A stretch of 64,000 nucleotides of DNA from Geminicoccaceae bacterium (GTDB taxonomy: Bacteria > Pseudomonadota > Alphaproteobacteria > Geminicoccales > Geminicoccaceae): positions 3,164,451 through 3,228,450 of the forward strand of contig AP024683.1 of the NCBI GenBank assembly GCA_025999455.1, in the 5' to 3' direction. Below, piece after piece: positions 23,085-35,573 of the stretch (the stretch's first letter is position 1; each line of letters opens with the position of its first letter). Under the pieces are notes generated by a model. That model had not been told where the DNA came from. It saw only the letters and a list, made by a program, of their open reading frames with translations, and searched no databases. Both the position numbers and the translations under genes were made by a program.

Positions 23085-24548
23085 TCAGAGCAAGGCGCCG
23101 GTGAGCTCGCTCTTGAGCCGGGTGCGGAAGTCGTTGATCGCCTTGAAGGCCTCGCGCAGCGATTCGCGCTCCCGGTCGGTGAGGCTGCGCGGGTCGAGGA
23201 AGTTACCGACCGGTCGACCGGCCTCGTAATCGGCGAGCTGCTGGCGGAGCTGCAGCCCGGTCACGAGGGCGAAGGCGGCGCGCAGATGGTCGGCCTCGTC
23301 CGCGGTCGTCGCGCCGATCGCGAGGAGCCCGTCGATCCGGGCGAGCGTGCCGGTCGCCGCCACGCCGTGGCGCAAGGCCATGAGGCGGACGGCCTCGGCG
23401 AGCGGCAAGGTGCCCATGAGCTTGAGGTTGATCTGGCCCCGGTGCGCCGGGTCCTGGCGTTCGGTGATGAAGCGGTTGAAGAACCCGACCGCCGCCCGGT
23501 GATCGGCCTGGATCCCGAACATCTCGCGTAAGAAAGCCGGGTTCGCCGGCGCCGTCTCGGTCACGAAGGCGCGCAGCTCCTCGGCGAGCGCCCGCTCGCC
23601 CCAGACCGGCAGAAAGTCGAAGAAGATGTCGCAGGCCAAGAGCATGGCCTCGTGCTTCTTGCGCATCCAGCCGGCGACTTGCGCCTTCCATTGCGAGAGC
23701 GTCTTGCGCCAGAGCGGGTTGGTCGCCATCACCCCGCCCTTGCAGAGGGGAAAGCCGAGCGTGTCCAGCGCCCGGGTCATCCGCTCGGCGCACTCGATGA
23801 ACCAGGGATCGATCGCGGCGTGCGCCTCGTCGGGATAGTCGGCGAGGACGAAGCCGTTGTCCTGGTCGGGGAAGAGGAAGCTCTCCCGCCGCCCGCCCGA
23901 GCCCATGACGATCGCCGCGAAAGGAACGGGCGGCGGCCCCCAGCCTTCCGCCTCCATGCCGGCGACCAGCAGCCGCAGCACGCGGCGGTAGATGTCGTTG
24001 TTGATGTCGGAGACGAGCGCTTGGATCTCCGGGGCCGGCACGGCGTCGTTCAGGAGGGCTCGGGCGAGCTGGACCTGGGCCGCCTTGATCTGGGCGAGGC
24101 CCGCCATGCTGTCCTCGTGGGTGAGCCGGTCGATCTGCTCGACCAGATGCCCGGTCGCGACGGCGAGCGCGTCGTGCAGGAAGAGCATGCCGACGAGGCG
24201 ACCGGCCTCGTCGACCACCGGCATGTGGCGCAGCCGCTTGCGGCGCATGAAGCCGATCGCCTGGTAGAGCTGGTCGTCGGCGCGGATCGTGAGGACCGGT
24301 CGGGTCATGAGGCCGTCGATCGGCTGGTCGCCGATCCGCCGACAGGCGATCCGTCGGACCACGTCCTGCTCGGTCAAGATGCCGCGGATCGTGCCGTCGG
24401 TGTCGGTGACGACCGCTGCCGAGGCGCGGGTCGCGGCCATGCGCGCCACGGTCTCGGCGGCGGTGCTGCCGAGCGGGACGACGACCGGGGGTTCCACCAT
24501 GTGGTCCCGCACCAGGTGGCGGAAGACCGCCGTCTGCGAATGGGGCAT
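23085..24548 (-). CDS. CBS-domain DUF294 nucleotidyltransferase-like protein
   Basis: A 487-residue cytosolic protein. Two CBS domains (about 8-130) should bind an adenine nucleotide. A DUF294 nucleotidyltransferase-like domain follows (GSGGRRESFLFPDQDNGFV, the G-S then D-x-D pattern of the Pol-beta fold), then a helical C-terminal DUF294 region. The architecture recalls GlnD-like uridylyltransferases, but the substrate is unknown. In many proteobacteria such genes sit with an SSF-kinase and a DnaQ-like exonuclease, both of which lie 5.5 kb away here. GAGGAG precedes the ATG. Confidence 0.9.
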   Translation of the reverse strand: MPHSQTAVFRHLVRDHMVEPPVVVPLGSTAAETVARMAATRASAAVVTDTDGTIRGILTEQDVVRRIACRRIGDQPIDGLMTRPVLTIRADDQLYQAIGFMRRKRLRHMPVVDEAGRLVGMLFLHDALAVATGHLVEQIDRLTHEDSMAGLAQIKAAQVQLARALLNDAVPAPEIQALVSDINNDIYRRVLRLLVAGMEAEGWGPPPVPFAAIVMGSGGRRESFLFPDQDNGFVLADYPDEAHAAIDPWFIECAERMTRALDTLGFPLCKGGVMATNPLWRKTLSQWKAQVAGWMRKKHEAMLLACDIFFDFLPVWGERALAEELRAFVTETAPANPAFLREMFGIQADHRAAVGFFNRFITERQDPAHRGQINLKLMGTLPLAEAVRLMALRHGVAATGTLARIDGLLAIGATTADEADHLRAAFALVTGLQLRQQLADYEAGRPVGNFLDPRSLTDRERESLREAFKAINDFRTRLKSELTGALL

Positions 24549-24702
24549 CGACCGGCTCCTCGGACCGGGGCACGCGACCGATCTTGGCGGCCGCGCGCGG
24601 AAGGCGCCACCGGGTATCTGCGCGCGACCTGCGCCGTTCCGCTCGCCGGGTCGATCGTACCGCGGGGCGCGGTCGTCTTGGCTCGACGGGGCGATCGGAT
24701 GT

Positions 24703-25833
24703 ATGAGTGGCGGCACGTCGCGGCGCCCGCTCCGGCGCATCCCGGCCACGTCAGGAACGGCGCGAAACTTGACCGATCCGGCCCCTGTCACACTCTGCAT
24801 CGTCAATTACAACGGGCTCCGGCACCTCGAGCGCACGCTGCCGGCCGTGCGCGCGATCGCCGACGAGTTCGTCGAGATCCTGCTCGTCGACAACGCCTCG
24901 ACGGACGGCAGTCCGGCCTACGTCGAGAAGCATTTCCCCGAGCTGCGGATCGTCCGTCTCGACCGCAACGACGGGCCGGGTGCGGCACGCAACGCCGGAC
25001 TCGCGGCGGCGCGTACGGATCTCGTGTTCTTCGTCGACAACGACGTCATGCCCGAGCCGGGTTGCGCCGCCCGGCTCGCCGCGGCCCTCGCCGCGAACCC
25101 GCGCGCCGCGGTCGCGGCCTTGCGGATCCTCTACGCCCACGAGCCCGACATCGTGCAGTACGACGGCGCGGACAATCATTATCTCGGGCTCATGATCCTC
25201 CACCACAAGGACGTGCCCAAGGACGAGGCCGGGGCGGAGGTGCGGGCCGTCGACGGGGTCGTGAGTGCCGCGTTCGTGGTGGCCCGCTCGCGGCTCGCCG
25301 GCGAGGCGTTCGATCCGAATTTCTTCATCTACGTCGAGGATCACGATTTCGGCTTGCGGCTACGGCTCATCGGCGCCGAGATCCTTTCCGTCCCCGCAGC
25401 GGTCTGCTTGCACGGCGACGGGAGCGACGGCCTCTCGGTTCGGGCGGTCGGCAGCTACACGAGCCGCCGTGCTCATCTCCTCATCCGCAACCGCTGGCTC
25501 TTGATCCTGAAGAACTATACCGGCCGGACGCTTCTCGTGCTCTCCCCGCCGCTCCTGGCCTTCGAGGTCGCCCAACTGTTGATCGCGATCAAGAAAGGCT
25601 GGTTGCCGGAATGGTGGGCCGCACTGCGCTGGCTCGTCGCGCATCGCCGCGAAGTCCTCGCCGAGCGACGGCGGATCCAAGCCAGGCGGCGGGTTCCGGA
25701 TCGCGCGATCCTGCGCGGCGGTGCGGTGCCGTTCCGTGCGGAGCTCACCACGAGCCCGGCCGAGCGGCTCTTGCGCCGGCTCTTCGACGGCTTCGCCATC
25801 GCCTACTGGCGGTTGGCGGCCGGGCTGCTCTGA
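24703..25833 (+). CDS. GT2-family glycosyltransferase
   Basis: A GT-A-fold transferase of 376 residues, probably adding a sugar to a lipid-linked glycan at the inner face of the membrane. It has VTLCIVNYNGL at the start of the fold, DNASTDGS, the metal-binding VDNDVMPEPG, and DPNFFIYVEDHDFGLR, typical of rhamnosyl- or galactosyl-type GT2 enzymes (WcaA/RfbF-like). A hydrophobic stretch near residue 290 may dip into the membrane. The ATG at 24703 gives a low-complexity N-terminus; a TTG at 24769, just before the fold, is an alternative start. It opens the glycan-type locus that runs to 35.6 kb. Confidence 0.88.
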   Translation: MSGGTSRRPLRRIPATSGTARNLTDPAPVTLCIVNYNGLRHLERTLPAVRAIADEFVEILLVDNASTDGSPAYVEKHFPELRIVRLDRNDGPGAARNAGLAAARTDLVFFVDNDVMPEPGCAARLAAALAANPRAAVAALRILYAHEPDIVQYDGADNHYLGLMILHHKDVPKDEAGAEVRAVDGVVSAAFVVARSRLAGEAFDPNFFIYVEDHDFGLRLRLIGAEILSVPAAVCLHGDGSDGLSVRAVGSYTSRRAHLLIRNRWLLILKNYTGRTLLVLSPPLLAFEVAQLLIAIKKGWLPEWWAALRWLVAHRREVLAERRRIQARRRVPDRAILRGGAVPFRAELTTSPAERLLRRLFDGFAIAYWRLAAGLL

Positions 25834-25842
25834 GCCGCGGAC

Positions 25843-27102
25843 GTGGCGCTCGCGGAGCCGGCCGCGACCGGGCGGCCCGTCGCGACGCGCGGCGGCGGCC
25901 GCAGGCTTCGGATCTGCTACCTCGTCCCGGGCCACGGGCTGCTGTCGACCGTCGGCCCCTCGCGCAACGTGCTCTCTCTGGCGCGTGCACTTTCGGCGTA
26001 CGCGGATGTGACGGTCGCCTTCCGCTACCGGCTCGAAGACCGCGTGCCGGACGGGCTCCAGCTGATCGAGCTCGAGCCCGAGAAGCGCCCGGCACGAGTG
26101 ATCGACGACGCGGCGATGCGCGGTATCGGCCTCGCCGAGTTCGCCCGCTACGTGGCGAGATTGCGGCGGTTCGTGCGCGACTCCTTCGGCCGCTTCGACG
26201 TCTTCCTTGAGAAGAGCTGGATCCTCTCGGGCCATCTCTCCGCCTACGGTCTGTCGCGTGGCATTCCGGGCGTGCCGGTCGAGAACGTCGTGCCGAGTGC
26301 CGCGCGGCACGTCGGTGCCGGGCTCGCCAAGCGTCTGCGGGTCGAGATCGGCCGCCGCCTCGCCGGACCGGCCCTCCGCCGGGTCCCGGTGGTGCTCGCC
26401 GAGACCGAGCAGCTGAAGGCGCAGATCGTCGAGGTCTGGGGTGTGGCACCCGAGCGCGTCACCGTGGTCCCGCTCGGCGTCGACCGCGAGCTGTTCCGGC
26501 CACGCGACCAGACCGAGGCGCGCCGGGCCCTCGGGCTCGCTCTCGACCGAACGATCCTCCTCTACGTGGGCGTGCTCGACGAGACCCACACTTTGGACGG
26601 GATCATCGACGCGGTGCTCACACTTCGGCCGACCGGTCTCGAATTGCACGTCGTGGGTGACGGGCCGCGCCGCGCCTCGTACGCCGAAAAGGCCTCGACC
26701 TCGGGCGGCACCGTGATATTGCACGGGCGCGTGCCGCACACCGCCGTCCCGATCTGGATCGCCGCCGCCGATCTCTGCCTCGCACCCTACGAGCCGCGCG
26801 CCTTCGCCACCGGAGCTCTGGGCTATTCGACGATGAAGGTTCCCGAATATCTCTCGGTCGGCCGGCCGGTCGCGGGCAGCCCGAGCGCGCGGATGCGCGA
26901 GCTCCTGCGCGACGGCGAACTCGGCTTCGAGATTCCGGCCGACGCCGCCTCCTGGCGCGCGTTCCTCGAGCGACTGCCGGATCGCGAGCAGCTCGCGGCG
27001 ATGGGCCGGGCGGCCTTGCGCCATCCCCAGCCTTCCTGGGACGACACCGCGCGCGGCTACCTCACCGCCTGCGAGCGCGCGCTCGCGAGCCTCGGGAGAT
27101 GA
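25843..27102 (+). CDS. GT4-family glycosyltransferase (group 1)
   Basis: A GT-B-fold transferase of 419 residues. The N-terminal Rossmann half begins RICYLVPGHGLLSTVGPSRN. The C-terminal half has VVPLGVDRELF, LLYVGVLDETHTLDG, LHVVGDGPRR and the nucleotide-sugar site around APYEP...MKVPEYLSVGRPV. It follows the GT2 gene by 10 bp and overlaps the next gene by four (ATGA). The GTG start is supported by spacing after the GT2 stop. The donor sugar cannot be told. Confidence 0.9.
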   Translation: MALAEPAATGRPVATRGGGRRLRICYLVPGHGLLSTVGPSRNVLSLARALSAYADVTVAFRYRLEDRVPDGLQLIELEPEKRPARVIDDAAMRGIGLAEFARYVARLRRFVRDSFGRFDVFLEKSWILSGHLSAYGLSRGIPGVPVENVVPSAARHVGAGLAKRLRVEIGRRLAGPALRRVPVVLAETEQLKAQIVEVWGVAPERVTVVPLGVDRELFRPRDQTEARRALGLALDRTILLYVGVLDETHTLDGIIDAVLTLRPTGLELHVVGDGPRRASYAEKASTSGGTVILHGRVPHTAVPIWIAAADLCLAPYEPRAFATGALGYSTMKVPEYLSVGRPVAGSPSARMRELLRDGELGFEIPADAASWRAFLERLPDREQLAAMGRAALRHPQPSWDDTARGYLTACERALASLGR

Positions 27103-27533
27103 GCTTGGGCGCCTATCAGCTCGCCGCGTTCGCGCATCTCGTGCTCGCCGTGTTCGTCACCGGCTACGCGCTCTTCTGGGCGATCATGGCGCTCGCGCTC
27201 CGCCGCGTTTCGAGCCCGGCCGAGACCGAGACCCATCTCGCCACGGTGGCCGCTGCCCGCTGGCCGCACGTGCTCGTCCCGTGGCACTTGCGACTGCGCT
27301 TGCCGCTCGTCGGCTGGCTCCTGTTCGCCGCGGCGATCGCGAGCGGGCTCCTCGTGGGGGCGCTCGGCGGGCCGCGCGAGCTCGGCCTCGCCTTCTGGCT
27401 GAAGCTCGCGGCCCTCCTCGCCGTCCTCGCGGTGCATGCGAGCCTCGCGCGGCGGCCACGACCGCTCACGGCCTGGGCGGGCCTGCCGCTCGTGCTGCTC
27501 GTCCTCCTGCTCTCCGTCCCGCTGGTCCGCTGA
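27099..27533 (+). CDS. Small polytopic membrane protein (144 aa)
   Basis: No family recognised. Four predicted transmembrane helices (about 8-30, 65-88, 95-113, 120-142) and a charged cytoplasmic loop (LRRVSSPAETETHLATVAAARWPH) are visible. A histidine lies in helix 1 (AFAHLVLAV). It is embedded in the glycan locus with ATGA coupling to the GT4 gene and is followed 11 bp later by a second membrane protein of the same size and layout; the two may form one complex. Confidence 0.75.
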   Translation: MSLGAYQLAAFAHLVLAVFVTGYALFWAIMALALRRVSSPAETETHLATVAAARWPHVLVPWHLRLRLPLVGWLLFAAAIASGLLVGALGGPRELGLAFWLKLAALLAVLAVHASLARRPRPLTAWAGLPLVLLVLLLSVPLVR

Positions 27534-27544
27534 GGGGTACCGGG

Positions 27545-27976
27545 GTGAGCCTGTACCACGTCCTCGTCGCCCTGCACCTCCTCGCCGTGGCGCTCTGGAT
27601 CGGCCACATGTTCGTCTGGTCGATCCTCGTCGGGCCCGCCTTGAAGCGGGTCGAGCCCGAAGCGACCGCGGCCTTTTTGCGCGAGCGCATGGTCTATCTG
27701 GGGGGCCTCGGCTGGCCGGCGCTCGCGGTCCTCGTACCGACCGGTCTCTACCTCCTCTGGCTGCGGGGGATCGGACCGGGCGAGCTCGTCACACTCGGCT
27801 TCCTCGACCGGCCGGACGGCGGCCCGATCGCACTCAAGCTCGCCCTCGTGCTCTGGATGATCTTCTACCAGAGCATCTGGGGCCACCGGCCGGCGCCGAT
27901 CGCGAACTGGGTCAACATCGCCGCCGCCCTCGTGATTCTCGCCTGCTCGGTCGTGATCGTACGGGGCTGGGCATGA
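27545..27976 (+). CDS. CopD-like small membrane protein (143 aa)
   Basis: Four hydrophobic helices. Helix 1 reads LHLLAVALWIGHMFVWSIL with two histidines one turn or more apart, as in CopD-type and related membrane haem or copper proteins. Metal binding is only a guess. The stop overlaps the start of the first AlkP-superfamily gene by four bases. Together with the preceding membrane protein it sits between the glycosyltransferases and the AlkP/oxidoreductase genes. Confidence 0.72.
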   Translation: MSLYHVLVALHLLAVALWIGHMFVWSILVGPALKRVEPEATAAFLRERMVYLGGLGWPALAVLVPTGLYLLWLRGIGPGELVTLGFLDRPDGGPIALKLALVLWMIFYQSIWGHRPAPIANWVNIAAALVILACSVVIVRGWA

Positions 27977-29523
27977 GCCGGAAGGTCCTGGTCCTCGCGC
28001 TCGAGCTCGGCGACGGGTCGTATCTGCGTCGCTTCGCGGCCGAGGGCGTCATGCCGAACGTGGCCGCCCTCCTCGCCCGCGGTCGCTCCGGTCCGCTCGA
28101 AACACCGGCCGAGCTCCTCCACGTCGCCGCCCTGCCCTCGCTCTACACGGGCGTCGGCCCCGCCGCGCACGGCGTCTGGTTCACCTTCCAGCCGGCCCCC
28201 GGGCTCCAGGGCTGGCAGCGGTTCGCACCGGGGCTCTACGGCGCGCCCACCTTCTGGTCGCTCGCCTCGGCCGCGGGCCGGCGCTGCACCGTCTTCGACG
28301 TCCCCTACGCCCACCCGGAGCCGGGCTTTTCGGGCGCCCTCGTGCTCGAATGGGGAACCTGGGCGCAGTATCTGGAGCCCACCTCCGTCCCCGAGGGGCT
28401 TCTGCGCGCGCTCGTCGCCGCCGTGGGCCGCCACCCCCTCGGGCTCGAGGCCCACGCGCTCGGCTTCGCCCCGCTCGATCCCGCCGAGACGGCGGAGAAG
28501 CTCGAAACCGCTCTGGACGCCCGTGCGCGGGCCACGGTCTGGCTGTTGCGCGAGCGGCCCTGGGACCTCTTCGTCACCTGTCTCGACGAGACCCATCCGG
28601 CGGCGCATTACTGTTGGTTGCCGCCCGCCGAGGGCTCGCTCGAGCCGCCGACCGATCAACCGCATCTGCGGAGAGTGTACGCCGCCCTCGACCGCTGCAT
28701 CGGGACGATCCTCGACGCGGCCGGTCCCGGGACCACGTTCTTCCTCGTGTCCGGCGACGCGATCGGTCCGAACCGCGCCGGCTGGCACCTCCTGCCGCAG
28801 GTCCTGGCCCGCCTCGGCCATCTCGTCTCGGCCGATCTCGCCGACAGCGCATCGGCCACGGCGGCGAAGCCTCCCGGCGGCTTCGACCCGGTCAAGGCCG
28901 TCCGCGACCTCTTGCCGAAGGATTTCCGCAAGCGGCTCGCGGGGCTCCTGCCGCGCGGCCTGCGCGACAAGCTCGCCCAGCGGGTCGACACCGCGGCGAT
29001 CGATTGGAGCCGCACCCGCGCCTATTGTCTGATCACCGACCTCGAGGGCTGCATCCGCGTCAATCTCCGCGGCCGCGAGCCACTCGGGATCGTCGAGCCG
29101 GCCGACCGTCCCACCCTGCTCGACGAGCTCGAGCGCGAGCTCGCGGCCCTGGTCGAGCCCGAAAGCGGCCGGCCGGCGGTGCGGCGGATCCTGCGCGCCG
29201 ATCGCGAGCTTGCGGGCCCGCGCAGCCCCTGGCTTCCCGATCTCGTCGTCCACTGGGCCCGCGAGCGGTCGATCCGCGCCCTCGAAAGTCCGAGGATCGG
29301 CCGGGTCGAGGGGCTCTCCCCCGACCCGCGACCGGGCACCCATGCCGGGCCCGGCTTCGCGGTCCTGGCCGGGCCCGGGATCGAGCCGGGTCCGCTCGGG
29401 CAAGGGGCGCGGCTCGTCGACGTCGCCCCGACCGTGCTGACCGCCCTCGGCGTCGCGCCGCCGGCCGGGCTCGAGGGCCGTCCCTGGCCTTTGCCGCCGT
29501 CCGAACGAGGAGAGGCATCGTGA
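27973..29523 (+). CDS. AlkP-superfamily protein, atypical active site (copy 1)
   Basis: A 516-residue relative of the phosphodiesterase/nucleotide-pyrophosphatase class of the alkaline phosphatase superfamily (COG3379-like): TG-x5-HG motif (YTGVGPAAHG), LVSGDAIGPN, and a late GTHAGPGF. By hand alignment the usual nucleophile Thr/Ser falls on His50 (LLHVAALPSLYTG). The first metal Asp falls on Glu11, the middle Asp/His pair becomes H208/H212 (ETHPAAHYCW), and the DHG motif becomes GDA (D262). Only the last His (H457) is standard. No signal peptide, so it is probably cytosolic. It could be an enzyme with a changed metal site or an inactive binder. Coupled by four bases to its neighbours on both sides. 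Confidence 0.82.
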   Translation: MSRKVLVLALELGDGSYLRRFAAEGVMPNVAALLARGRSGPLETPAELLHVAALPSLYTGVGPAAHGVWFTFQPAPGLQGWQRFAPGLYGAPTFWSLASAAGRRCTVFDVPYAHPEPGFSGALVLEWGTWAQYLEPTSVPEGLLRALVAAVGRHPLGLEAHALGFAPLDPAETAEKLETALDARARATVWLLRERPWDLFVTCLDETHPAAHYCWLPPAEGSLEPPTDQPHLRRVYAALDRCIGTILDAAGPGTTFFLVSGDAIGPNRAGWHLLPQVLARLGHLVSADLADSASATAAKPPGGFDPVKAVRDLLPKDFRKRLAGLLPRGLRDKLAQRVDTAAIDWSRTRAYCLITDLEGCIRVNLRGREPLGIVEPADRPTLLDELERELAALVEPESGRPAVRRILRADRELAGPRSPWLPDLVVHWARERSIRALESPRIGRVEGLSPDPRPGTHAGPGFAVLAGPGIEPGPLGQGARLVDVAPTVLTALGVAPPAGLEGRPWPLPPSERGEAS

Positions 29524-30554
29524 CCGTCCGCATCCTGCAGGTCGGCGCCGGCATCCGCGGCCGGCACTGGATCGAGTACGTCAAGGCCTTCGCCGGCACC
29601 GAGTGCGTGGCCCTGGTCGAGCCGGATCCGGCCAATCAGGAGAAAGCACGCGCGCTCTTGGGCCCCTCCTGTCGGATCTTCACCGAGCTCGACGCGGCCC
29701 TCGCCTCGGTCGAGGCGGATGCGGCGCTGATCGTGAGCCCCGACCGTCTCCACGCCGAGCAGGCCCTCGCCTGCCTCGACAAGGGGCTCACGGTCATGAT
29801 CGAGAAGCCCTTCACGCCGACCGTCGCCGAGGCGGCGCGGGTGCTCGAACGGGCCGCCGCGGTGGGGCGGCAAGTGATCGTGGCCGAACAATACCGCTTC
29901 TGGGCGGCCGAGCGGACGGTCAAGAAGCTCCTCGACGAGGGCCGGATCGGTCGGGTCGACCATTGCGTCTTCGTCGACCACCGGGCGATGCGGGCGGCGA
30001 GCGAGGGCCCCTGGCTCGCCGAGGTCGACTATCCCCAGCTCCAAGCCGTGGCGGTCCACCATTTCGATTCGCTGCGGATGTGGTTCGGCCGGCCGCGCGC
30101 GCTCTCGGTCAAGGCCTGGCGGGCGCCCTGGTCCGACTACAAGGGCTGCGAATGCAGCCAGGCGCTCGTCGACATGGGCTCGGTCCAAGTCTCCTATCTC
30201 GGCACCATGAGTGCGCCCCGCTACGGCTGCTCGATCCGGATCGACGGCGAGAAGGGGGCGATCTGGACGAACCGCCGCTGGGTCTTCCTGCGCGAGGGGT
30301 CGAGCCGCTTCTTCTTCCCGGTGCGCAACGTGAAGGTCCCGCCGGGCGACGAGAAATCCTATCCGCAAGGTGGGACGACCGCGCTCTTGATGGCCCTCCA
30401 GGCGGCGGTCGAGAAGAACGTCCCGGCCGAAACGCGCGGCGAGGACAACATCTGGACGATCGCGATGCTGGAGGCGGGCAAGCGCGCCGCCGCCGAGGGT
30501 CGCACCGTGGCGATCGGCGAGGTCGGCGACGGCCGCTTCGTCGAGCGGTCCTGA
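29520..30554 (+). CDS. Gfo/Idh/MocA-family NAD(P)-dependent oxidoreductase
   Basis: A 344-residue sugar or inositol dehydrogenase-like enzyme. A Rossmann N-terminus begins VRILQVGAGIRGRHWIEY, the catalytic-lysine motif is EKPFTPT at about 98-104, and the C-terminal alpha/beta domain holds VAVHHFDSLRMWFG. The substrate is probably a (nucleotide-linked) sugar, given the neighbours. The GTG start overlaps the stop of AlkP copy 1 (GTGA). It sits exactly between the two AlkP paralogues, with copy 2 starting 10 bp later, so the three are likely made together. Confidence 0.9.
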   Translation: MTVRILQVGAGIRGRHWIEYVKAFAGTECVALVEPDPANQEKARALLGPSCRIFTELDAALASVEADAALIVSPDRLHAEQALACLDKGLTVMIEKPFTPTVAEAARVLERAAAVGRQVIVAEQYRFWAAERTVKKLLDEGRIGRVDHCVFVDHRAMRAASEGPWLAEVDYPQLQAVAVHHFDSLRMWFGRPRALSVKAWRAPWSDYKGCECSQALVDMGSVQVSYLGTMSAPRYGCSIRIDGEKGAIWTNRRWVFLREGSSRFFFPVRNVKVPPGDEKSYPQGGTTALLMALQAAVEKNVPAETRGEDNIWTIAMLEAGKRAAAEGRTVAIGEVGDGRFVERS

Positions 30555-30564
30555 GGAGGTGCCC

Positions 30565-32142
30565 GTGCCGGCCGCCCGTCGCGTCCTCCTGATCGGTCTC
30601 GACAGCGCCGATGCCGATCTGATCGAGCGCTGGGCGGGCGCCGGCCACCTGCCGACCTTCGCCCGGCTCATGCGGGAAGGCTCCTGGTCGCGGCTGCGGA
30701 CCACCGCCGAGGTCCTGCACGTCTCGGCCTGGCCCACGATCTACACGGGCGCCACCCCCGGCCGGCACGGGCTCTACCACGCCTATCAGGTCCGCGCCGG
30801 CGACCAGCGGATCCACCGGACCGACCCCGCCTGGTGCGCGCTCCCGCCTTTCTGGAAGACGCTCGACGAGGCCGGGCGGCGTTGCATCGTCTTCGACGCC
30901 TTCATGGACTGCCGCCTTCCGGATTTCCGCGGCGTCCAGATCGGCGAATGGGGGACCTGGACCTGGTTCGGCGAGCCCTTCTCGACCCCGACGGGCTTGC
31001 GCGACCGGCTGATCCGCGAAGTCGGCCCCTACCCCGCCCCCGAGCACAGCGTGCAAGTGACCGTGCCGGACCAGCTCTGGTTCCGGGATCGGCTGGTCGC
31101 GGCGGCCGCCCTCAAGGCCCGCGCCACCGACTGGCTGTTGCGCAACCATCCCTGGGAGATGGCCTTCGTCACCTTCGGCGAGCCGCACGGCGGCGGTCAT
31201 TATCTCTGGCACACGGGCGATCCCGCCTATCCCCTGCACCGGCCGATCGCCGGGCTGCCGCACCCGCTCCTCGACGTCTACGCGGCGGTCGACCGGGCGA
31301 TCGGCGACATCCTCGACCGCCATCTCGACGATCGGACGACCGTGCTCCTCGTCTCGGGCGACGGCATGGGTCCGAACTATTCCGGCGCCCATCTGATGCC
31401 CGAGCTGTTGCACCGGCTCGATCTCTACCACGCCCCGGGCGTGGGTGGCGGTGCCACGGAAGTGAAGGCCGCACCCAAACGCAGCCTCGCCGCACGGCTG
31501 CGCGAGATGATCCCCTTGCCGGTCCGCCAGTCGATCAGCCGCTGCCTGCCCCGCCGGCTCAGATACGAGCTCTCGCTCAAATGGCTCAACGCCGACATCG
31601 ACTGGACCCGGACCAAGGCCTTCCCGATTCACAACAACAACGAGGGCTTCGTCCGCTTGAACCTCGTGGGGCGCGAACCGCGCGGGATCGTCGAGCCCGG
31701 CGCGGCCCGAGACGAGCTCCTCGCGCTTTTGGCCGACGAACTTGCCGGGCTCGTCAATCCGAGCAACGGCCGCAGAGCCGGTCGGGTGAGCCTGATCGAC
31801 GAACTCTTCCCGGGCAGCGAACGCCCGCATTTGCCGGACGTCGTGATCAGTTGGGACGAAAGCGCGCGCGTCCTCGACCGGGTCCAGGGCCCACGCGCCG
31901 GGCTCGTCTGCGGCAAATGCGGCTACGAGACGCCGGCTTTCTACACCGGCAACCACCGCCCCGTCGCCTTCCTCGCCGCGGCCGGCGCCGGGGTGACGGC
32001 GGGCGCGCGGATCGAAGGCGGTCACATCCTCGACGTGCCGGCCACCATCTTGGCCTTGCTCGGGGTCGACCCACCGGCACATTTCGAGGGATGCGAGCGG
32101 ACGGCCGAGCTCGTCAACGCTTCGTTAACCGAGGCGCTCTAG
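30565..32142 (+). CDS. AlkP-superfamily protein, atypical active site (copy 2)
   Basis: A 525-residue paralogue of the gene at 27973. Shared blocks are EWGTW, GHYLW/AHYCW, VSGDxxGPN, IDW(S/T)RT and GREPxGIVEP. The N-terminal metal Asp is kept (D13, LIGLDSADADL), but the nucleophile position is again His (H52, VLHVSAWPTIYTG). The middle ligands become H208/H212 (EPHGGGHYLW), DHG becomes GDG (D266), and the final H464 is kept. The same set of replacements in both copies argues for a distinct subfamily rather than decay. The GTG at 30565 is preferred because GAGGAGG lies just upstream. Confidence 0.85.
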   Translation: MPAARRVLLIGLDSADADLIERWAGAGHLPTFARLMREGSWSRLRTTAEVLHVSAWPTIYTGATPGRHGLYHAYQVRAGDQRIHRTDPAWCALPPFWKTLDEAGRRCIVFDAFMDCRLPDFRGVQIGEWGTWTWFGEPFSTPTGLRDRLIREVGPYPAPEHSVQVTVPDQLWFRDRLVAAAALKARATDWLLRNHPWEMAFVTFGEPHGGGHYLWHTGDPAYPLHRPIAGLPHPLLDVYAAVDRAIGDILDRHLDDRTTVLLVSGDGMGPNYSGAHLMPELLHRLDLYHAPGVGGGATEVKAAPKRSLAARLREMIPLPVRQSISRCLPRRLRYELSLKWLNADIDWTRTKAFPIHNNNEGFVRLNLVGREPRGIVEPGAARDELLALLADELAGLVNPSNGRRAGRVSLIDELFPGSERPHLPDVVISWDESARVLDRVQGPRAGLVCGKCGYETPAFYTGNHRPVAFLAAAGAGVTAGARIEGGHILDVPATILALLGVDPPAHFEGCERTAELVNASLTEAL

Positions 32143-32184: not shown

Positions 32185-34089
32185 ATGTGCGGATTGGCCG
32201 GCGTCTTGTGCCGCGGCCCGGGCATGGCGGGCGCGCAATGGGCGCCGGTCGTGGCCCGCATGTGCCGGGCGATCGCCCATCGCGGCCCGGACGACGAAGG
32301 GATCTGGAGCGACGGGCCGGTCTGCCTCGGCTCGCGTCGGCTCGCGATCCAAGACCTTTCACCGGCCGGGCACATGCCCATGCTCGACCCGACCGGCCGC
32401 TACGCCCTCGCCTACAACGGCGAGCTCTACAACGCCGCCGAGCTCAAGGCCGAGCTCCAGGCGAAAGGTGTCCGCTTCCGCTCGACCGGCGACACCGAAG
32501 TCGTGCTGCACAGCCTGATCTTCTGGGGGGAGGCGGTCCTGCCGCGGTTCGCCGGGATCCTGGCGTTCGCCTTCTGGGACCGTGAGCGGCGGGAGCTCTG
32601 GCTCGCCCGCGATCATCTCGGGGTGAAGCCGCTCTACTACATGGACCGCGGCGATCTCTTCCTGTTCGCGTCCGAGATCAAGGCGCTGTTGCCGGAGCAT
32701 CCCGACCCCCGGGTCGACGAGGCCGGCCTCGTCGAATGGGCGCTCTACCGCAACCTCGACGCGCCGACCCGGGGCACCCTCGTCCGGGGTATCGAGGCCG
32801 TCTTGCCGGGCGAGCTCGTGGTCGTCGCGGACGGCCGACGTCGGCACCGCGCCTATTTCCGGCCCTCCGAGGCGGTCGATCCGTCCGCTTATGCGCGCAA
32901 CCGAACGCTTGCGCCCGCCGCCGTCGTGGAAGAGGTCGACCGGGACCTCCAGCACGTCGTCCGCGAGCAGCTCGTCTCCGACGTGCCGTTGGGCACCCTC
33001 CTCTCGGGCGGCCTCGATTCCTCGCTGCTGACCGCCGTGGCGGCGGAGTTCCGCCGCGATCTGAAGGCCTTCCACGTCTCGATCGCGAGCTTCCCCGAGC
33101 ACGACGAGCGCCCTTTCGCCGAAGCGCTCTGCCGCGCGAAGGGTCTGGAATTCGTGCCCATGAGCCTCGACGGGCCGACGTTCCGCCGCGCGCTCGCCCG
33201 GACCGTGTGGCTCTCGGACCTGCCGCTCACCCATCCGAACTCGGTCGCCTACCATCTGATCAGCCGCGTGGTGCGTGACCACGGCGTGATCGTAACCCTC
33301 GCCGGCGAGGGTGCCGACGAACTGTTCGGCGGCTATTCCTGGGCCTATCGCCGGCGGCGTCGGCTGCAGCGGTTGCGGCCCTGGCTCGCCCGGCTGCCGG
33401 CCGTGGTCCGCGACGGCCTCGCGCTCCTCGTCTACGCCGAGGCCGAACTCCCGGTGACGTCGGTCCGCTTCCGGGATCTTTTGCCACCCGCGGTCGATCT
33501 GATCGATCGCTACCAGCGCTACGAGCATCTGCAGGACTGCATCGCCGCCTACGGCTTCGAGCCGCGCGCCGAGGATCGCGAGATCCTGGGCGCCATGCTC
33601 GCCGATCTCGGCGATTTCTTGAGCCCGCTCCTGCGCCGGCTCGACCGGACCAGCATGGGGGCGTCGGTCGAGTGCCGCGTGCCCTTCCTCGACCCGCGGC
33701 TCGTCCGCCGGGCGGTCAATCTGCCCCTCGACTACAAGCTCGGCCGCCACGCCGACAAATGGGTGGTGAAGCAGATCGCCACCCGGTACATGCCGAAGGA
33801 GCTCGTGTTCCGCAAGAAAATGGGCTTTCCGCTGCCCTTGTGGGACTGGGCCCGGCCCTATGCGCGGCCGGACTTCTTCGCCGCGGGCTTCCTCGAGACC
33901 CGGCTCGGCTTCGGCCGGCGCGGGCTCGCTCGGCTCGTGGGCCGGGCCGAGCGCTGGGTGCACGCCTTCTTCGGGCTCGTCACCCTTGAGATCTGGGGGC
34001 GGCTCAACCTCATGGGCCAGAGCCTCGCCGAGGTGGAGAGCTGGCTCGGCGGTTTCGAACCGCGTCGACCGGAGGTTGCAGCGCCGTGA
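32185..34089 (+). CDS. asnB: Asparagine synthase (glutamine-hydrolysing) family protein
   Basis: An amidotransferase of 634 residues. The N-terminal glutaminase begins with the catalytic Cys2 (MCGLAGV) and has AHRGPDDEG, RLAIQDLS and YNGELYN. The C-terminal ATP-pyrophosphatase domain has SGGLDSS at about 273-279 and later GEGADELFGGY. In exopolysaccharide and lasso-peptide loci such proteins amidate sugars or peptides rather than make free asparagine, and the flippase and glycosyltransferase neighbours favour modification of a glycan. The flippase gene overlaps its stop by four bases. Confidence 0.93.
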   Translation: MCGLAGVLCRGPGMAGAQWAPVVARMCRAIAHRGPDDEGIWSDGPVCLGSRRLAIQDLSPAGHMPMLDPTGRYALAYNGELYNAAELKAELQAKGVRFRSTGDTEVVLHSLIFWGEAVLPRFAGILAFAFWDRERRELWLARDHLGVKPLYYMDRGDLFLFASEIKALLPEHPDPRVDEAGLVEWALYRNLDAPTRGTLVRGIEAVLPGELVVVADGRRRHRAYFRPSEAVDPSAYARNRTLAPAAVVEEVDRDLQHVVREQLVSDVPLGTLLSGGLDSSLLTAVAAEFRRDLKAFHVSIASFPEHDERPFAEALCRAKGLEFVPMSLDGPTFRRALARTVWLSDLPLTHPNSVAYHLISRVVRDHGVIVTLAGEGADELFGGYSWAYRRRRRLQRLRPWLARLPAVVRDGLALLVYAEAELPVTSVRFRDLLPPAVDLIDRYQRYEHLQDCIAAYGFEPRAEDREILGAMLADLGDFLSPLLRRLDRTSMGASVECRVPFLDPRLVRRAVNLPLDYKLGRHADKWVVKQIATRYMPKELVFRKKMGFPLPLWDWARPYARPDFFAAGFLETRLGFGRRGLARLVGRAERWVHAFFGLVTLEIWGRLNLMGQSLAEVESWLGGFEPRRPEVAAP

Positions 34090-35573
34090 GTGTCCAGGCG
34101 AGCCGCGCCGCTCGGGGTACGATCTACGTGACCTTGGGCCATCTGTCGCTCGCGATCGCCGGCTTCGCCGTCGCCCTCCTGCTCGGGCGAGAGTTGGGAC
34201 CCGCGGCCTACGGCGTGTGGGGCATCGTGTACGCGATCCTCGTCGGCGTCGAGCAGATCGGCCGGCTCGGGATCCCGCAAGCGACGAGCCGGCTCGTCGC
34301 CGAGGCCGACGGCCGCGACCCTCTGCTCGAGCGACGCGCGGTCACGCTCGTTCTGCTCGTCTACACCACCTTGTTCGCGGGCCTCTGGTTCGGCGCGCCG
34401 AGTTTGGAACGGATCTTCGACATCCCGGACGGCACGCGGCTGCTGCGGATCGCCGCGCTGGACGTCCCGCCCGTCGGCCTCTTCCTGATCTTGTTGGCGG
34501 TCCTCAACGGACGCCGCGACTTCGCGGCCGAGGGCATCGTCGTGATCGTCTACGCGGCGACCAGGGTCCTCGGCCTACTCGTCGCGGCACCGTTCGGCCT
34601 CACGGTCGAAGTCGCGCTCGTCGTGACGATCCTTTCGGCGGTCGCCGCGTCCTTCGCCGCGGCGATCCGCCTGGGCCCGGGCATCCTCCGGCCCCGTTTC
34701 GATCGCCTCCAACCGATCCTCGCGATCGCGGCACCGGCCGCGCTCGCCTGGGGGGCCGGTGCCGCCTTGAGCAATCTCGACCTCTGGGCGTTGAATGCCT
34801 TCGGCGACGATGTCGCCGCCGAAGTCAAAGGTTGGTACACGGCGGCCTTGAACCTGGCCCGGGTGCCGAACCTCCTGGCTTTCGTGGCCACCTCGATCCT
34901 CGTGCCGACCATGGCGCACGCTTTGCGCGGCGGTGACCGTGCGGGTGCGCAGGCGGCGCTCGCGGGCGGCACGCGGATGATGTCGATCGTCCTCGTCCCC
35001 GTCGCCGTCCTCGGCGGGATCGAGGCGCGCGGTTTGATGGAGCTCGTTTTCGGCGCGGCCTACGGCGACGGTGCGCCGCTCCTCGCGGTGCTGTTCCTCG
35101 CCCACGGCGTCGGCTACACGGCCATGATGAGCTTGGGCGCCGTGTTGCTCGCCGCCGGTCACGAGCGCCTGTCGGCGGTGCTCGCGCCCGCAGCGGTCGC
35201 CATCGCCCTCGTCCTCCTGCCGCTCGGGACGAGCTTTTTCGGGGGGATGGGCACGGCGGTCGGATCGCTCGTCACGGCTCTGACGGGCCTCGCGCTCGCC
35301 GCACGCGCCGTCGTCGGGCGTGTGGGCCCGCTCGGTGAGCCGTCCCTGCTGCCACGTATCTTGCTCTCGGTCGCCCCGGTCGCGATCTTCGCCCTCGCGG
35401 TGCCGAGTCGCGGCGCATGGCTGCTCTTGGAACTCGCGGTCGCGGGCGGCCTCTACCTCGCGCTGCTGGTCGTCACCGACGTCCTGCGGTCGACGGATCT
35501 CGCCGCGCTCCGCCCCACGCCGACCCCCGCCTCGATCGCCGCGGCGGTGGACGAGCGGGCTTCCGGCCGCTAA
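34086..35573 (+). CDS. Wzx-type polysaccharide flippase (MOP/MATE superfamily)
   Basis: A 495-residue inner-membrane protein with 12-14 hydrophobic helices and the family start GTIYVTLGHLSLAIAGFAVALLLGRE...GPAAYGVWGIVYA, placing it with O-antigen and exopolysaccharide lipid flippases. It should move a lipid-linked oligosaccharide to the periplasmic face. GTG start at the AsnB stop (GTGA). It closes the 24.7-35.6 kb locus. No Wzy polymerase, Wza/Wzc exporter or initiating transferase is visible here, so the pathway must use genes elsewhere. Confidence 0.9.
   Translation: MSVQASRAARGTIYVTLGHLSLAIAGFAVALLLGRELGPAAYGVWGIVYAILVGVEQIGRLGIPQATSRLVAEADGRDPLLERRAVTLVLLVYTTLFAGLWFGAPSLERIFDIPDGTRLLRIAALDVPPVGLFLILLAVLNGRRDFAAEGIVVIVYAATRVLGLLVAAPFGLTVEVALVVTILSAVAASFAAAIRLGPGILRPRFDRLQPILAIAAPAALAWGAGAALSNLDLWALNAFGDDVAAEVKGWYTAALNLARVPNLLAFVATSILVPTMAHALRGGDRAGAQAALAGGTRMMSIVLVPVAVLGGIEARGLMELVFGAAYGDGAPLLAVLFLAHGVGYTAMMSLGAVLLAAGHERLSAVLAPAAVAIALVLLPLGTSFFGGMGTAVGSLVTALTGLALAARAVVGRVGPLGEPSLLPRILLSVAPVAIFALAVPSRGAWLLLELAVAGGLYLALLVVTDVLRSTDLAALRPTPTPASIAAAVDERASGR

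Follow-up and report, generated by a model that had tools for sequence, protein, structure and literature searches.

The DNA analysed here (the window, 64,000 nucleotides) belongs to a genome represented by a single contig of 3.76 Mb, and the named relatives nearest to this genome are Geminicoccaceae metagenome bins. The window carries a run of forward-strand genes in which two AlkP-fold proteins, designated A and B, flank an oxidoreductase:

24289..25833, + strand: GT2 glycosyltransferase, found upstream in several relatives, real start probably within the ORF
25843..27102, + strand: GT4-type glycosyltransferase, conserved upstream member of the cassette
27973..29523, + strand: protein A, AlkP-fold protein of 516 aa without the canonical nucleophile (PF01663 match, AF2 fold, profile alignment)
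29520..30554, + strand: Gfo/Idh/MocA-family oxidoreductase between A and B, GTG start, EKP motif (ORF, Pfam)
30559..32142, + strand: protein B, AlkP-fold protein of 527 aa, GTG start, paralogue of A (PF01663 match, AF2 fold, profile alignment)
32185..34089, + strand: AsnB-like amidotransferase (MCG N-terminus, SGGLDSS loop), conserved downstream member of the cassette
34086..35573, + strand: polysaccharide flippase (Wzx-type), usually downstream

A and B are 40% identical and have the motifs EWGTW, VSGDxxGPN, IDWxRT and GREPxGIVEP in common, in agreement with a preliminary description of the locus as two AlkP-superfamily paralogues flanking an oxidoreductase and sharing these four motifs. After the GT4 gene and just upstream of A, 27281-27976 (+) encodes a small hydrophobic protein without any Pfam match; its stop and the A start overlap, and the DNA here is conserved in L035, L039 and L041, three relatives that are among the closest.

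Leaving the window's own aside, all ten complete loci have GT4-A-oxidoreductase-B-AsnB intact and in this order, and A and B were always present as a pair in the complete loci examined. Identities for the most distant cassette, from a bin labelled Gemmatimonadetes, are approximately 50% for A, B and the oxidoreductase and only 30% for AsnB. In polysaccharide loci, Gfo/Idh/MocA and AsnB-like enzymes usually serve in sugar oxidation and amidation, and the cassette resembles a route to a surface glycan containing an oxidised and amidated sugar.

Both proteins belong to the AlkP superfamily by their fold and by their match to PF01663 (Phosphodiest), which exceeds the cut-off with 44.8 bits for A and 95 bits for B. 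Structure prediction of both proteins, proposed in the preliminary description, was carried out with AF2 from 14 sequences and gave models with a mean pLDDT of 77.6 (medium confidence) and pTM values of 0.82 and 0.80. When these models were searched against the PDB, B matched XaNPP best (E 6e-14), and the top fold match of A was phosphonoacetate hydrolase (E 6e-10). As judged from the models, A and B have the NPP/phosphonoacetate-hydrolase fold, and these searches speak to fold only. In both models, an H-x3-H motif is located in a helix directly after a strand, which would place its two His one turn apart. A PDB sequence search with B alone returned no match, whereas the family profile did match. 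Among the family libraries searched, no curated NCBIfam model fits A, B or their wider clade; the phosphonoacetate hydrolase model TIGR02335 reached only 12-17 bits, far below its cut-off of 407. Neither protein matches PF00884 or contains the Cys/Ser of the sulfatase motif C/S-x-P-x-R, which rules out a formylglycine sulfatase. Both are probably cytoplasmic, given that no signal peptide is apparent in their sequences.

To locate the active site, a family HMM was aligned to the solved structures of XaNPP (2gsn, 7mw8) and PhnA (3szy, 3t02), and the conservation of the following features was determined:

28120..28122, + strand: A His50, at the nucleophile (Thr/Ser) position (HMM alignment, conservation)
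30718..30720, + strand: B His54, at the nucleophile (Thr/Ser) position (HMM alignment, conservation)
28588..28608, + strand: A E206-x-H208-x3-H212, canonically D-x3-H (conservation)
31180..31200, + strand: B E208-x-H210-x3-H214, canonically D-x3-H (conservation)
28753..28758, + strand: A G261-D262, replacing D-H of DHG (HMM alignment, conservation)
31357..31362, + strand: B G267-D268, replacing D-H of DHG (HMM alignment, conservation)
29341..29343, + strand: A His457, conserved final metal-ligand His (conservation)
31954..31956, + strand: B His466, conserved final metal-ligand His (conservation)
30946..30960, + strand: B EWGTW (130-134), where the wider clade has [DE]W-x-x-H and A/B have Trp134 (conservation)

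B His54 and A His50 coincide exactly with the catalytic Thr of XaNPP (T90) and PhnA (T68), where the structure strings read SLTFPN in 2gsn, SLAFPN in the 7mw8 chain, SFTNPN in 3szy and SFANPN in 3t02, and the hGm / G-D-G block of the family aligns on the XaNPP DHG. The preliminary description had arrived by hand at a His in place of the nucleophile and G-D at the DHG motif, and the HMM alignment agrees with it residue by residue. Because His is placed on the nucleophile Thr of both reference enzymes, the alignment is not shifted at the sequence level, and a shifted register in which a Ser/Thr elsewhere would act as nucleophile was rejected at that level. As for individual candidates, B S56 is Ala in A, and B T60 / A S56, six residues further along, is a Ser/Thr position that canonical proteins have in addition to their nucleophile.

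The TG-x5-HG block, the final His and the His-x3-His at the middle ligands, all part of the preliminary description, were likewise recovered. In B numbering, used from here on, H54, H210, H214 and H466 are each found in 24 of 24 A/B sequences, so that none of these retains the Thr/Ser (or formylglycine Cys) nucleophile of NPPs and alkaline phosphatases. Measured against the canonical ligands of the superfamily (PMC6052110), A and B keep the middle His, the last His and, in B only, the first Asp; this N-terminal ligand is Asp in B (D15) and Glu in 11 of 12 A sequences. Canonical metal site 1 is therefore altered, with both His kept and the Asp of D-x3-H changed to His in 60/60 sequences, and canonical metal site 2 (N-terminal Asp, nucleophile, DHG Asp and His) is not found in A/B. 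Residue 268 is Asp/Glu in all 24 A/B sequences, within a block that reads G/A-D/E-G/A/S, and residue 134 is Trp in all of them. Throughout the same set, residue 465 is Thr in A and Asn in B instead of the usual Asp.

A and B form a divergent subclade of a wider clade comprising 36 further sequences from Alphaproteobacteria and two cyanobacterial plasmids. Relatives were present in 18 of 289 genomes searched in the class and, in a search of the order, in 17 of 32; two more are carried on plasmids of Planktothrix and Nostoc. Phylum-wide scans yielded almost nothing outside the class, an underestimate given that at most three candidates were scored per genome; no relative was found in the viral contigs searched, and no description of the clade was found in the open-access literature. 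The clade lies within the AlkP superfamily, and is not a new kind of system. The branch between it and the proteins with the canonical Ser/Thr, D-x3-H and D-H-G received 100/100 support.

Outside A/B, H210, H214, H466, R366, R372, D245 and D427 are each conserved in 36/36 wider-clade sequences, R462 in 35/36, D15 in 33/35 and a newly conserved His134 in 33/36. A and B share the features that characterise the clade (H210, H214, H466, R366, R372 and no conserved Ser/Thr nucleophile) and depart from it at His134. The nucleophile position is occupied by A, S, N, V, P and others, usually not by Ser/Thr; since seven of the 36 sequences have Ser and two have Thr at position 54, a minority could in principle keep a nucleophile. 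The DHG Asp is lost in 35/36 sequences and the DHG His is present in 24. Several branches, of the G-P-G and S-Q-G types, have no obvious site 2 ligand besides Asp15, suggesting that site 2 may be dispensable. One H-x3-H member (L106:9346-12895), whose gene adjoins ATP-grasp and glycosyltransferase genes, combines Asp at 268 with Asn in the place of the nucleophile.

Glycan-type neighbours were found in about ten of the wider-clade loci examined. These include AsnB (L096, L097 and the Planktothrix locus L112), carbamoyltransferase (L088), Gfo/Idh/MocA together with GT2 (L078), flippase (L098) and, in Nostoc (L113), a sugar transferase/GT/flippase nearby. Other loci lack such neighbours and have DnaJ, ArgG, MFS or GST instead. 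On the Planktothrix agardhii plasmid (L112:2547-8869), the H-x3-H AlkP-like gene sits between phytanoyl-CoA dioxygenase and nadB-asnB, a setting that resembles a small natural-product or amino-acid cluster more than a glycan locus.

Phylogenetic analysis placed A and B as sister clades, with 99/97 support for A+B when the motif columns were removed and 100/100 or 100/99 for each of the A and B clades in the same motif-stripped tree. His at position 54 requires three changes over the whole tree and D/E at position 268 requires two, with one of each on the A+B branch. A and B thus descend from a single ancestor that already had His54 and Asp268, and count as one event rather than two witnesses: the coupled exchange, as reconstructed from the sequences, occurred once and was followed by duplication. 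Parallel replacement in two diverged copies, from which the preliminary description had argued, was rejected by the trees with and without the motif columns. H-x3-H, the loss of the nucleophile and the loss of the DHG Asp are older than A/B and belong to the wider clade; special to A/B are only the His at the nucleophile position, Asp268, Trp134 and the change at 465.

Since A and B lie in a conserved sugar-polymer gene cluster and carry a different set of conserved His, they probably have a function other than any assayed so far. Our preferred reading, to which we give slightly less than an even chance, is that they are metal-binding proteins of glycan biosynthesis with a rebuilt, nucleophile-free active site. 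Metal site 1 would survive as a three-His site (210, 214 and 466), and site 2 would be rebuilt in A/B from Asp/Glu15, His54 and Asp268. A rearranged second site is the simplest way to read the exchanges, as His leaves 268 (and 134) and appears at 54 while an acid appears at 268; the new metal site or mechanism evoked in the preliminary description is, in this form, what we infer from the conserved residues. A metal-activated water could then replace Thr, or the acceptor could be bound directly, and the substrate of A/B in the cytoplasm would be a sugar-phosphate or a lipid-linked glycan intermediate on which a group is cleaved or transferred. Oxidation by the Gfo/Idh/MocA enzyme and AsnB-like amidation would take place alongside, followed by export through the flippase, and the two copies may be kept because they act on separate substrates or because A and B pair. 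Counting against this reading are the wider-clade branches with no evident site 2 ligand beyond Asp15, the clade members whose genes lie outside glycan loci and the medium confidence of the models. Extended to the whole clade, the proposal becomes more tentative. It is possible, though less likely than not, that surface glycans are built or modified by a three-His group of AlkP-fold enzymes that needs no covalent nucleophile and occurs in Alphaproteobacteria, Cyanobacteria and perhaps Gemmatimonadota, the A/B branch having rebuilt its second site via the His at the nucleophile position.

A serious rival, though less probable than the preferred reading, is that A/B carry out no catalysis: having kept the AlkP fold with one metal site, they would sense metal or act as scaffolds and so regulate or organise the glycan pathway. 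The loss of the nucleophile and of half of metal site 2 throughout the clade would fit such a role, as would the constant pairing of A and B if they form a complex. There are also precedents in PorX, where zinc binding and not enzyme activity mattered for secretion (PMC11320123), and, more debatably, in YejM/PbgA, for which a catalytic versus a non-catalytic role is disputed (PMC7576196). However, conservation in the wider clade extends beyond one metal site, to R366, R372, D427 and D245 in every sequence and H134 in nearly all, and the specific exchange of conserved His and Asp in A/B would be unexpected for a mere scaffold. The exact placement of His54 at the Thr/Ser attack position and its invariance in the 24 A/B sequences raise another reading, in which this His is a covalent nucleophile, new for the fold, and A/B are phosphotransferases acting via a phosphohistidine intermediate. 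We consider this improbable: H54 and Asp268 arise on one branch, which fits ligand exchange better, and the wider clade has no conserved residue at position 54 and must therefore manage without a nucleophile there.

It is far less probable still that A/B are decayed or pseudogenised AlkP copies, even though the canonical catalytic residues are lost and one B copy (L049, from G679) has an in-frame TGA, possibly a sequencing or assembly error, or a damaged copy. Comparison of the window with five relatives gave dN/dS values of 0.17-0.25 for A and 0.13-0.21 for B, and both genes are under purifying selection. Together with sites that remain invariant over deep divergence and a cassette retained in every complete locus, this selection contradicts a pseudogene and bears out the earlier view of a functional subfamily rather than decay.

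Relative to NPPs (XaNPP 2gsn; ENPPs; PF01663), A and B share the fold, the TG-x5-HG block, the second ligand of the middle motif and the final His, but differ in having His for the Thr nucleophile, H-x3-H for D-x3-H, G-D-G/A for DHG and, in A, Glu for the N-terminal Asp. The same active-site differences separate them from PhnA (3szy, 3t02; TIGR02335), the closest solved fold to A, the profile alignment being best over the N-terminal 110 residues. The nearest canonical relatives in the tree are cytoplasmic-type AlkP phosphohydrolase/mutase-like proteins (L042, L023, L111 and the haloarchaeal L114/L115), presumably of the COG3379 type, which resemble A/B in length, GREPxGIV and LPDLVV but keep Ser/Thr, D-x3-H and D-H-G. 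Two other proteins with altered sites were observed. In the same genome but outside the window, L001 (contig 3117988-3119094, minus strand) is a PF01663 protein that keeps the Thr nucleophile, but its D-x3-H is replaced by D-Y-G-L-Q and its DHG by E-Y-G, which makes it a second and different departure from the canonical site. In the same bacterial family, L058:1462-3039, located downstream of a gene for a BrkB-type membrane protein, is near-canonical with altered ligands (Gly for the N-terminal Asp, TAIAQH, DCG). PbgA/YejM and PorX, for which no sequence match to A/B was found here, are examples of the AlkP fold being used in regulation or accommodating altered sites; they are an inner-membrane protein and a response regulator, respectively, and most members keep the catalytic Thr, unlike A/B. 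The core of the superfamily is taken to be a covalent Ser/Thr/formylglycine nucleophile with its surrounding metal site. A coherent, selected clade without nucleophile and with replaced ligands would demonstrate that other chemistry is within reach of this fold, and some genes in glycan loci would then be wrongly annotated as "alkaline phosphatase family protein"; GT4-A-oxidoreductase-B-AsnB offers a compact, testable cassette.
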